In this document: positions 8,554-11,897 of the stretch, one piece after another | Position numbering within the stretch: position 1 is the first letter of the stretch | How the letters are laid out: each line of letters begins with the position of its first letter | Assembly (NCBI GenBank): GCA_021604765.1 | Contig: BQJP01000015.1 | Coordinates: 1-61,626, forward strand | Direction of reading: 5' to 3' | Source: Thermodesulfobacteriota bacterium | GTDB taxonomy: Bacteria > Desulfobacterota_D > UBA1144 > Nemesobacterales > UBA2774 | Length of the DNA stretch: 61,626 nucleotides | Notes under the pieces: generated by a model | What the model was told of the DNA's origin: nothing | Seen by the model: the letters and a program-made list of their open reading frames with translations, nothing else | Databases searched by the model: none | Made by a program: the position numbers and the translations under genes

Positions 8554-10599
8554 TTAATTGTAAAAAACTATGATATTTAATATCAGAATAGCAAGCCCTG
8601 TAAATGGCCAGAAAAAGAGTTTTGGAATTAGGTTGTTTTTATATTGTACTATACCAAGTTTAGAGTTTTGGAGCAGTACTGCATTTAGACTCACTCCAGC
8701 CATTATAAAGTAAGTGAGGAAATAATAGTATTCGATATATACAATTTCATTTGCTCCAAGGTTTCTTCTCAGACTTATCTGCAAAAATATTAGTGCCAGA
8801 AATAAAGTAGCGTAAGGTCTAACAACATAGTGACCTGTAGCAGTTTTAAATATTGCAAACATTAAAAACAGAGCAATTGCAATAGGTAAGAAGTTAGATA
8901 TAAACACATTTAAGATATTAGGACCCATAATGATATTAAAGTAAATTTCTGGAAAACGTGACTGTCCAATAAAATTATCTATACCGAAATTGGTGTTATA
9001 GCTGTCAAATGTATAGCTGAAAAAAGAATTTTTAATCTCCCAGTTTCTTATTGTTATATTTTTATCCAATCCAGGTAAATATCTAGATGAATTTAGTTTG
9101 TAAGAGTCAAGATCTGGAACTAGAACAATATTTTTATCAAATTCTTGATGCTTAAGTAGCAACCACATGTTTTCATTTGCAAATGGATACTTTGTATAGT
9201 CAAAGTTGGAACTTATATTTATATTGAATACCCACTCAATTAAAGTGTAATTTCCGAAAGATTTCTCAAAGAACTTTGTTAAAGTCTGGTCATTCGCGTT
9301 AGATATCGAAATTGTTCGAGACACGTCATCGTGAATGATCTTGTAATATTTCTGCCATATTATTCCTTTGATATTAACTGTACCAGTGGTACTAAAATCT
9401 ATTGATTCGATGAATATTCCTGTAGGTATAAAAATTGGTGGTTCTTCTTTCTTGTTTAAAGATTCCTTTATATAATCTAGTTTGAAATCTTCAAGAAGTG
9501 TGTCATTTAAAATTGCATTTTGTTCTTTCTCGGATTTGTCTTCATAATCTAGCCCAATATAACAAATGTAAATAGAGCCCAGAATATAAAGTACAAATAA
9601 AGGAATTGAAACCCCCCAAAACAAATATTTTGGTTGATAATTTTTGGTGATTTTTTTCATAAAATAAAAAGCTAGGGCGGTTAGAAAGAGGGTAAAGGCA
9701 ATTATGATGTTAATAATTTTTTTTCTATACGATGAGAAATCTTCTAAAATCTCATTCTCTACAATCTCAAATACTACTATCCAATCACTTGATTTCAACG
9801 GCGCAAAAAATTGATATAATGTCTCATTGGTTTTTTGGTCTTTTATTTTTACAAATCCAGATTCATACTTCTTTATATCTTTCAAGCTGTCAGCGGTCTT
9901 TATTCTGATATCAGAGGGTTGGATAACGTAACGTCCATCAGTTGTGATTAAGTAAGGTTGACCAGAATAGTCAAGGTTAAGTGAGGATAACTTCTCTTTT
10001 ATATCCTCTATAGAAATTCCAATAAATAATAGACCATTACTATCTTTGTCATCATTTGAGTTCATGCTAAATGTTTTTGTAAAATATATGAATTCCTTAC
10101 TGCTAATTTCATCATAGAAGGGCTGGGTCCAATTCTCTCCTAAAGTTATAGATTCTTCATACCAGGGAACACTCTGAGTTGTATAATCATAGAAAGAATC
10201 AAAACTTGCTTCTTCCGAATCATTACCTTTTTTAATTATGTAGGGAGAATATAACCTTAAGTTTTCATCAAAAGAGTAAGGACTAAAAAGAGCTCCAATG
10301 CTGGATATATCGTGCTCAAATTTAAGAGCTTGACTCAACTGATTTGCCAAGTTCTTTCTATTCATGATTCCTGTCGAAATGTTGTTAGTTATTTCATCTG
10401 CGATATCTTCAATCTCTTTTAGGAAAATTTCGGTATTTATATTTAGCTCTTTAGTTGCTTGTCGACCTTCGTCAACTATTTTATTGGAATTCTGACGTTC
10501 AGAAAGAAGTAAATCAAAAACAAAGTAAAGGCATATTAAAAAGAGTATTGCCAGGATTGAAATAATAAAATCGTTTGAGAATCTAATTTTTGAGAACAT
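8554..10599 (-). CDS. Cache-domain sensor fused to a pentameric ligand-gated ion channel (pLGIC)
   Basis: A 681-residue protein in two parts. Part 1: helix 11-32, an extracytoplasmic dCache-like domain ~36-285 (WY at 146-147, LITTDGRYVIQP at 217-228), and helix 295-314. Part 2: helix ~325-348, then a GLIC-like extracellular domain ~385-555: TGIFIES at 393-399, the Pro-loop F466-D-Y-x-x-Y-P-F473, NIVLVPDLDSY at 490-500, and NWEI at 519-522. Four helices follow (~561-584, 592-610, 618-643, 658-680), the last ending at the C-terminus, as in GLIC. Predicted topology puts both sensor domains and the C-terminus outside. No Cys-loop disulfide, as in other bacterial members. It starts 5 bases after a secreted binding-protein gene, so a ligand-delivery partnership is likely. 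The channel assignment rests on remembered GLIC alignment and helix order. Confidence 0.8.
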   Translation of the reverse strand: MFSKIRFSNDFIISILAILFLICLYFVFDLLLSERQNSNKIVDEGRQATKELNINTEIFLKEIEDIADEITNNISTGIMNRKNLANQLSQALKFEHDISSIGALFSPYSFDENLRLYSPYIIKKGNDSEEASFDSFYDYTTQSVPWYEESITLGENWTQPFYDEISSKEFIYFTKTFSMNSNDDKDSNGLLFIGISIEDIKEKLSSLNLDYSGQPYLITTDGRYVIQPSDIRIKTADSLKDIKKYESGFVKIKDQKTNETLYQFFAPLKSSDWIVVFEIVENEILEDFSSYRKKIINIIIAFTLFLTALAFYFMKKITKNYQPKYLFWGVSIPLFVLYILGSIYICYIGLDYEDKSEKEQNAILNDTLLEDFKLDYIKESLNKKEEPPIFIPTGIFIESIDFSTTGTVNIKGIIWQKYYKIIHDDVSRTISISNANDQTLTKFFEKSFGNYTLIEWVFNINISSNFDYTKYPFANENMWLLLKHQEFDKNIVLVPDLDSYKLNSSRYLPGLDKNITIRNWEIKNSFFSYTFDSYNTNFGIDNFIGQSRFPEIYFNIIMGPNILNVFISNFLPIAIALFLMFAIFKTATGHYVVRPYATLFLALIFLQISLRRNLGANEIVYIEYYYFLTYFIMAGVSLNAVLLQNSKLGIVQYKNNLIPKLFFWPFTGLAILILNIIVFYN

Positions 10600-10604
10600 T
10601 ATTC

Positions 10605-11897
10605 TTAATGACTTTGTTGTTTGGTCATTTCCTCTATATGGTTTCTAAAATCTTTCCAACTTACTTCTTCACATGTGTCTTTATTTATTTTGGTTAACCA
10701 GACATTATCACTTATTTGATGATCCAATTCGTCGAGTGATAGATCGAATCCAAGATTTAAATTATCAAAATCTATCTTCTCTATCCCCCTTATAATTCCT
10801 TGTGATGAATAATCACCACTCGAATTTTTTAAACCTTCCACAAATAAATAGGCTGAGATATACCCTTCAAGTGAAACGAAGTTTGGTTTAGATTTGGGGA
10901 AGTACTTTTTTAAATCTTGTTTATATTCTTTTACAAGCGGGAGATCTGAATTGAAATGTGGGACTACCTGAGTTACAAAAACCTCATCAGTTGTATCATT
11001 TAAGAGTCCTGCAAGCGGGAGACATCCCACAAAAGATACATTAATAAAAACGGCATTTGGTATAAGCTTGCTGGCGAACTTAATAAACTTGGCAGCAGGC
11101 TTATAGGAACCAACAATTACAACAGCTCTTATCTCTCTTTTCGTACTTAGGATTTCAAGTAATCCATCTTCTATGTCTAGAGAATTCCTTTGGTATGTTC
11201 CATAAGGTATCTCTTTTGAATTGAGATAGCCTCGTTTTTCCAGAGCATCTATAGCCCCTATGTAACCATCGAATCCATAACTGTCATCTTGTGTGAAGAT
11301 TGCAATTTCATAAGGTTTAATTCCACTATGCAATAGGTTCTCTATTATCTTTTCAGTTTCCTGGGCGTAGCTAGCTCTATAATTGATAATATATTTGTTT
11401 GTATGAAATTCTCGTGAGCTCTTAGTTTTTATTAAAAACTCTTTGTTGTCATAAGGTCTGAGAATGGAAGAGCCGCTAAATGGCGCATAATATAATACTT
11501 CATTTTCTATGGTTATTGGTGTAGCAGCTTTCGCTGTAGGGGTGCCAACATTTCCTATAAATGAAGTTACACCATTTTTATTAATAAGATTATATACGTT
11601 TGATGCGGCAAATTCTGGTTCATAACTATCATCGATAGAAAAGAGCTTCAATTTCTGGCCGTTTATTCCGCCCTGAGCATTGACTTGATTGAAATATGCC
11701 AGGACCCCTTTTCTCATATTAATGCCAAGTTCTTTGGCGGGTCCGCTAAATGCAGCAGACATGCCTATTGCTATATCTTCACTTTCTTCTGCACTACTCT
11801 TAGTTCCACAGAGAGCAAAAGCACTAATAAAACCTAATAGAATAAGGGTCTTTATTTTCACCATAGTTCTATTTTGTAATAACTTGTTCAGTTTCAT
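10605..11897 (-). CDS. Periplasmic amino-acid-type binding protein (LivJ / PBP type I)
   Basis: A 430-residue exported protein. The N-terminal hydrophobic segment (~residues 15-30) ends before AEESEDIAIG; its cysteine is not in a good lipobox, so cleavage by signal peptidase I is more likely. The body is Peripla_BP_6: IAIGMSAAFSGPAKELG, GGINGQKLKL, and FIGNVGTPTAKAATPI, followed by two Rossmann-like lobes. No ABC permease or ATPase is next to it; instead its stop is 5 bases before the Cache-channel gene. It therefore probably acts as a sensor partner and not in uptake. Start at 11897 or at an internal ATG at 11864; neither has a clear ribosome site. Confidence 0.85.
   Translation of the reverse strand: MKLNKLLQNRTMVKIKTLILLGFISAFALCGTKSSAEESEDIAIGMSAAFSGPAKELGINMRKGVLAYFNQVNAQGGINGQKLKLFSIDDSYEPEFAASNVYNLINKNGVTSFIGNVGTPTAKAATPITIENEVLYYAPFSGSSILRPYDNKEFLIKTKSSREFHTNKYIINYRASYAQETEKIIENLLHSGIKPYEIAIFTQDDSYGFDGYIGAIDALEKRGYLNSKEIPYGTYQRNSLDIEDGLLEILSTKREIRAVVIVGSYKPAAKFIKFASKLIPNAVFINVSFVGCLPLAGLLNDTTDEVFVTQVVPHFNSDLPLVKEYKQDLKKYFPKSKPNFVSLEGYISAYLFVEGLKNSSGDYSSQGIIRGIEKIDFDNLNLGFDLSLDELDHQISDNVWLTKINKDTCEEVSWKDFRNHIEEMTKQQSH

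Follow-up and report, generated by a model that had tools for sequence, protein, structure and literature searches.

To our knowledge, the stimuli and cellular roles of prokaryotic pentameric ligand-gated ion channels (pLGICs) are largely unknown. The locus described here raises the question of whether one such channel takes its signal from a separate binding protein. In a 61,626 nt stretch of DNA from a Thermodesulfobacteriota bacterium (GCA_021604765.1, contig BQJP01000015.1; forward-strand coordinates), which we call the window, a gene for a periplasmic binding protein (PBP-I) is found immediately upstream of a gene for a pLGIC subunit that is fused to a Cache domain. Our analysis suggests that the soluble PBP-I detects a chemical and relays this to the ion channel. 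Whether the two genes make up one sensory system, in which an ion channel is linked to a sensor like LuxP/LuxQ, is in our judgment evenly balanced.

A binding-protein gene and a channel gene at one locus

Both open reading frames are exactly where the original prediction placed them (Table 1). They have the same orientation, and 5 bases separate the stop codon of the binding-protein gene from the start codon of the channel gene. A larger, four-gene unit that also included the downstream GNAT and methyltransferase genes was rejected because both of those genes are present at the same site in congeners that do not have the pair. A scan of the locus for promoters and terminators gave fewer matches than shuffled sequence.

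The channel chain has seven predicted transmembrane helices in total, and hydropathy and the full-length AlphaFold model (pLDDT 77.8) concur on their order. The original prediction had an N-terminal dCache domain between helices, then a pLGIC sandwich and four helices, and that order stands. It had omitted the hairpin at residues ~288-351; that is, there are seven transmembrane helices and not five. The motifs that it quoted are at the residues given for them: TGIFIES at 393, FDYTKYPF at 466, NIVLVPDLDSY at 490, and N519-W520. The hairpin has a short, positively charged turn (KKITKNYQPK) that is predicted to be cytoplasmic, and the short predicted cytoplasmic segments of the channel are net positive, as expected for the proposed topology. 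In the full-length model the chain terminates with M4 and has no cytoplasmic output domain.

Table 1. Features of the two-gene locus in window coordinates.
Feature	Position	Strand	Size or residues	Basis
PBP-I binding-protein gene	10605..11897	(-)	430 aa	ORF; Pfam; PDB 4kv7; G002 ortholog
Cache-fused pLGIC subunit gene	8554..10599	(-)	681 aa	ORF; homologs; AlphaFold models
TM1, into Cache stalk	10492..10575	(-)	residues 9-36	hydropathy; model helix 9-76
Predicted periplasmic double-Cache (dCache/PDC) domain	9739..10491	(-)	residues 37-287	Pfam; PctA; Foldseek 3lic
Extra transmembrane hairpin TM2-TM3	9547..9738	(-)	residues 288-351	hydropathy; model helices 288-317, 323-351
pLGIC extracellular beta-sandwich	8920..9504	(-)	residues 366-560	GLIC profile match; hhalign; predicted fold
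Pro-loop FDYTKYPF	9181..9204	(-)	residues 466-473	P472 invariant in family
M1-M4 pore module	8557..8919	(-)	residues 561-681	helices 562-586, 589-614, 621-645, 657-680 (model)

The second half of the channel protein is a pLGIC

We found that the core of the channel protein is securely a pLGIC, by fold and by sequence. No pLGIC model in Pfam or NCBIfam matched the C-terminal half of the window protein, and none in Pfam matched any of the seven members of our first family alignment. Thus, the Pfam and NCBIfam models alone would miss the channel core. A profile of the seven-member family, compared to the whole PDB, matched GLIC-type chains (best E 1.3e-4) from the extracellular domain through M3, and it also gave a weak match to one canonical pLGIC in the window's genome (E 7e-4). 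Profile-profile comparison by hhalign to seven canonical prokaryotic pLGICs gave 97.5% (E 8.7e-12). The AlphaFold model of the pLGIC module alone (pLDDT 85.7) matched GLIC in Foldseek with an E of 1.1e-14 and a TM of 0.70. With the full-length model, DeCLIC was the top match, and glycine receptors, GABA-A receptors and GLIC were matched as well. That is, the protein has the beta-sandwich fold, the Pro-loop, four helices after the extracellular domain, and sequence homology to pLGICs. The GLIC-like core that had been proposed for this protein was recovered by the profile search, by hhalign and by AlphaFold with Foldseek.

GLIC, the best PDB match by both profile and fold, has the same extracellular beta-sandwich, Pro-loop and four-helix pore. 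In contrast to the window protein, it has neither a Cache domain nor the extra hairpin, and the two are ~15% identical over the aligned model. DeCLIC likewise has an additional periplasmic module at the N-terminus of a pLGIC. However, this module consists of two small lobes and is not a Cache domain, and the gating of DeCLIC depends on calcium (PMC12664993, PMC9897478).

By its fold, the Cache-pLGIC would assemble as a pentamer and may conduct ions in response to ligand. The M2 helix is very hydrophobic, and the ring of glutamates that usually sets selectivity is missing from it. Conduction is thus uncertain, and the M2 sequence gave no prediction of ion selectivity. Charges near the M2-M3 turn are conserved: R611 hardly varies in the family, and residue 623 is always acidic (E, with D in 4/21 rows).

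The Cache domain does not have a canonical ligand motif

The N-terminal half of the channel protein contains a double-Cache domain. The dCache_1 model matched residues 59-277 (E 2.7e-11) with 43.9 bits, just under its cut-off of 45, and MCP-like_PDC_1 matched residues 86-200 above its cut-off. The Cache part also matched the chemoreceptor PctA (E 2.5e-6) and, in Foldseek, the double PDC of soHK1S-Z6 (3lic, TMt 0.72).

The amino-acid motif of dCache_1AA domains consists of Y121, R126, W128, Y129 and D173 in PctA numbering, and the amine motif of dCache_1AM domains needs the same aspartate, D235 of PctD being at the position of D173 of PctA (PMC10104139). The equivalents in the window protein, from the alignment with PctA, are Y139, V144, W146, Y147 and G194. 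That is, the three aromatic residues are kept, and the charged residues R126 and D173 are replaced by V144 and G194. We rejected a canonical dCache_1AA amino-acid sensor because the equivalents of R126 and D173 are missing, and a canonical dCache_1AM amine sensor because G194 is at the position of the motif aspartate. The missing R126 and D173 equivalents fit indirect sensing by the dCache domain.

The two genes are inherited together and absent together

Cache-pLGICs (~580-730 residues) occur in many bacteria, and in some members the Cache region is shortened. The channel profile matched in 18 of 244 genomes from the phylum of G104. Two genomes from the phylum of G189 also had members, as did a small-genome group (G059, G588), Vibrio and others. 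In our sample of the window's own phylum, only 2 of 58 genomes had a Cache-pLGIC: the window's genome and that of a congener, G002. The window's genome, which is 95% complete, also encodes four further canonical pLGICs.

G002 has the intact pair. Gene order is the same as in the window, with an overlap of one base, and the proteins are 79-80% identical to those of the window (79% for the binding-protein ortholog). For both genes dN was 0.11-0.13 and synonymous sites were saturated or nearly so, indicating that both are under purifying selection. Identity of the two channels was 96% in M1-M4, 88% in the extracellular domain and 68% in the Cache region.

Two other congeners, G003 and G004, do not have the pair, and the GNAT and methyltransferase genes are in the same neighborhood in both. 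The gap in G003 between the GNAT gene and the next gene contains a decayed stretch that matches the 3' end of the channel gene (window positions 8555-8773). In a search on the coding part alone, this remnant scored 128, versus 63 ± 6 (maximum 89) for dinucleotide-preserving shuffles. Thus, the channel gene stood at this site before its loss from G003. The binding-protein gene was not found at the G003 site, where we saw no trace of it, and there was no clear remnant at the G004 site. The region upstream of the next gene in G003 is also conserved.

The pairing is narrow. Of all the loci with a channel gene that we gathered, only those of the window's genome and G002 have a PBP-I gene beside it; the other Cache-pLGIC loci had no adjoining PBP-I gene. 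Because most relatives have no PBP gene nearby, a Cache-channel can work without one. A search for the same gene pair in other genomes, as the original prediction had suggested, thus found it in one congener but not broadly. Taken together, sequence, fold and comparative genomics establish the parts of this locus, their order and their joint inheritance.

The binding protein is related to proteins that work with receptors

The binding protein is a member of Peripla_BP_6 (Pfam, E 1.3e-40), and its nearest solved structure is 4kv7 (E 1e-86). The LivJ-type assignment made originally was correct, and the gene is genuinely linked to that of the channel. The N-terminus has a signal-like segment and no convincing lipobox; the protein is presumably secreted.

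Relatives of the binding protein, gathered with the window protein as query, are found with signaling proteins. Two of them (L068, L078) adjoin genes for a HAMP kinase with a TorS-like sensor and for RsbW-like and response-regulator-SpoIIE proteins; the partner of TorS is the periplasmic protein TorT (PMC8534201). A third (L085), in a genome (G010) from the same family as the window's genome, adjoins a gene for an sCache-HAMP-SpoIIE phosphatase, and three more (L066, L083, L092) are fused to Ser/Thr kinases. The binding protein is therefore kin to receptor-associated PBPs.

Binding proteins and pLGICs are associated in other ways as well. A gene for a PstS-like PBP in the window's genome overlaps a canonical pLGIC gene by 4 bases. 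A Vibrio Cache-pLGIC gene comes third in a series of genes with overlaps of 4 bases, and the series begins with a gene for an SBP_bac_3 protein (PBP-II). Among the loci gathered, three proteins from two other genomes had PBP-I fused to a pLGIC (cyanobacterial L057/L058), and one of these (L058) is a direct fusion without a Cache domain. The association thus recurs with unrelated binding proteins. Since the PstS-like and SBP_bac_3 proteins are from different PBP superfamilies, these two associations are separate ones.

Much of this has precedents in Tasneem et al. (PMC549065), who described prokaryotic pLGICs fused to MCP-N/Cache or to PBP-I, as well as operons with PBP-II and one with Cache. 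The Cache and PBP-I fusions had been cited correctly in the original prediction; the paper adds the PBP-II and Cache operons. The Cache-type pLGICs in that work (MCP-N + Cache + LGIC; Methanosarcina, Cytophaga and Microbulbifer) have, in the domain architecture that the paper describes, the same N-terminal Cache domain and complete pLGIC core as the window protein. However, no separate paired PBP-I is described for them, and what the operons contained was PBP-II or a Cache gene on its own (PMC549065). The PBP-I-pLGIC fusions (Magnetospirillum and Bradyrhizobium, PMC549065; L057/L058) link a PBP-I of the Peripla_BP_6 kind to a pLGIC, as here, but as one polypeptide without a Cache domain, whereas the window has two polypeptides and a Cache domain. 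In the literature searched, which lies mostly outside the subscription journals, we found no paper in which a Cache-pLGIC is paired with a PBP-I that stands alone. The parts were already known from fusions with Cache or PBP-I and from operons with a PBP; the combination of a separate PBP-I with a Cache-pLGIC appears to be new.

How the binding protein may act on the channel

The boldest form of this proposal, held tentatively and somewhat short of even confidence, is that PBP-I, once loaded with ligand, docks on the dCache domain and thereby opens or closes the pLGIC. In the proposed sensory system, the Cache-pLGIC would be an inner-membrane pentamer that exposes five copies each of the dCache and extracellular domains to the periplasm. 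PBP-I would close around a small molecule, as its fold suggests, and would then dock on a dCache domain in the way that LuxP reports AI-2 to the double-PDC of LuxQ. The covalent linkage of the domains suggests that the signal from the Cache domain would reach M2 by way of the TM2-TM3 hairpin and the extracellular domain. An ion pathway would then open or close, ion flow being expected from the pLGIC fold.

Docking is suggested by the analogy with LuxP/LuxQ, by the missing ligand motif and by the receptor neighbors of the PBP relatives. The double-PDC sensor of LuxQ recognizes AI-2 via LuxP, and in both LuxP/LuxQ and HptA/HptS a separate periplasmic protein reports the ligand to a double-PDC sensor (PMC8534201), as PBP-I may do here. 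The window shares with LuxPQ a PBP-I partner and a double-PDC receptor that are encoded together. In contrast, the output of LuxP/LuxQ and HptA/HptS is a histidine kinase, and that of the window pair is a predicted ion channel. The window pair may resemble LuxPQ on the input side, but it is not a LuxPQ member.

It is possible, though rather unlikely, that the PBP concentrates ligand or hands it to the orthosteric site in the extracellular domain of the channel, with the Cache domain serving as a separate modulator. Tasneem et al. proposed exactly such a role for fused and operonic PBP domains, which would concentrate ligand for the channel or detect it on its behalf (PMC549065). Direct PBP-I-pLGIC fusions without a Cache domain (L058) are in keeping with this, as is the better conservation between congeners of the extracellular domain than of the Cache region. 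However, in SBP-receptor systems the loaded SBP is described as docking on the sensor domain of the receptor (PMC9602780), and the window chain has such a domain, anchored in the membrane on both sides and ahead of the channel module. The original prediction was that the ligand may be delivered by a separate secreted protein. The linked PBP gene is there, but delivery is only one possible mechanism, and we favor docking on the Cache domain because this domain has no motif aspartate and because the relatives of the PBP are receptor partners.

Direct ligand binding is usual for dCache domains. The Cache domain could, therefore, bind a small ligand of its own and gate the channel, the PBP having a parallel or regulatory role. 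The retained aromatic residues Y139, W146 and Y147, and the many relatives with no adjoining PBP gene, are consistent with this. We consider it improbable: both of the charged residues that define the motif are missing, and both genes are absent together in G003.

Still less probable is ordinary ABC uptake as the role of the binding protein, with its position beside the channel gene being incidental. Most Peripla_BP_6 proteins do serve in uptake of the LivJ type, and the pairing with a Cache-pLGIC is found in two congeners only. However, the window's genome encodes only two Peripla_BP_6 proteins and, at its 95% completeness, no PF02653 (BPD_transp_2, LivH/LivM-type) permease (the control matched 12/14 genomes), and no permease gene adjoins the binding-protein gene. 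The 5-base gap, the joint absence in G003 and the signaling genes beside the relatives also argue against uptake. With no LivH/LivM-type permease found in the genome, the binding protein is probably a sensor subunit rather than an uptake protein. We give least credence to a pLGIC fold that was kept after ion conduction was lost, leaving a non-conducting receptor: the acidic ring is absent, M2 is hydrophobic and Pfam gives no pLGIC match, but M1-M4 is the best conserved part of the protein, R611 is nearly invariant, E623 is always E or D in the family, and no cytoplasmic output domain is present in the chain.

Implications for the control of pLGICs

The known targets of SBPs include chemoreceptors, kinases, cyclic-di-GMP enzymes and Ser/Thr kinases; ion channels are not listed among them (PMC9602780). 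If the two genes described here do form one sensory system, then ion channels would join the receptor classes that are controlled by solute-binding proteins. One clade of PBPs would serve as a shared input module for kinases, phosphatases and an ion channel, and an accessory protein in the periplasm could control channels of the neurotransmitter-receptor type. The conserved two-gene unit also provides a handle on this family: the binding protein can be used to look for its ligand, and both can then be tried on the channel.

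Binding proteins and pLGICs in the same genome or the same chain

We found that the genome containing the window encodes four canonical pLGICs, spread over contigs C1, C12 and C42, in addition to the Cache-type one, an unusually high count for a single bacterium. On contig C42, the gene for one canonical pLGIC and a PstS-like PBP_like_2 gene overlap by 4 bases. This is a second binding-protein/pLGIC pair in this genome, and it is independent of the pair in the window. The canonical pLGIC gene on contig C12 overlaps a patatin-like gene upstream. In another genome (G459), a PstS-like PBP_like_2 gene is convergent with a Cache-pLGIC gene.

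Binding-protein domains were also found within single chains. Genome G403 has two such genes in tandem, whose products (1187 and 1183 aa) each carry an N-terminal PBP-I domain, a pLGIC core and an SBP_bac_1 (PBP-II) domain C-terminal of M4, a set of parts that recalls glutamate receptors. Three other loci (L066, L083 and L092) encode Ser/Thr protein kinases with fused Peripla_BP_6 domains related to the window binding protein.

Other Cache-pLGIC loci

On a Vibrio plasmid, three successive genes overlap one another by 4 bases; they encode an SBP_bac_3 protein, a small membrane-like protein (no match in a Pfam search) and a Cache-pLGIC. The Cache-pLGIC of G104 is interrupted: M2-M4 lie ~1.2 kb away, past a transposase-like ORF that had no match in a Pfam search. 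Intact copies are present in two congeners (G353 and G494).

In G115, an in-frame TAA separates the Cache part from the channel part. Genes for PLP-dependent decarboxylases, one of them tyrosine-type, lie on either side, and the Cache domain retains the motif aspartate of amine/amino-acid dCache sensors. Together, the flanking genes and this aspartate hint that the ligand of this Cache-pLGIC may be an amine.

Loci of pLGIC genes and their neighbors
Feature	Locus	Coordinates	Strand	Source
Canonical pLGIC	L116			own genome, contig C1
Canonical pLGIC	L118			own genome, contig C12
Canonical pLGIC/PstS-like PBP_like_2 pair	L117	3346-5423	-	own genome, contig C42
Cache-pLGIC, convergent PstS-like PBP_like_2	L124	5431-8832		G459
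PBP-I/pLGIC/SBP_bac_1 fusion	L057	145-3708	-	G403
PBP-I/pLGIC/SBP_bac_1 fusion	L063	94-3645	-	G403
SBP_bac_3/small membrane-like protein/Cache-pLGIC run	L038	2598-6849	+	Vibrio sp. THAF191d plasmid
Interrupted Cache-pLGIC	L028	8300-11881	-	G104
Cache-pLGIC, flanking decarboxylase genes	L025	6291-12813	+	G115
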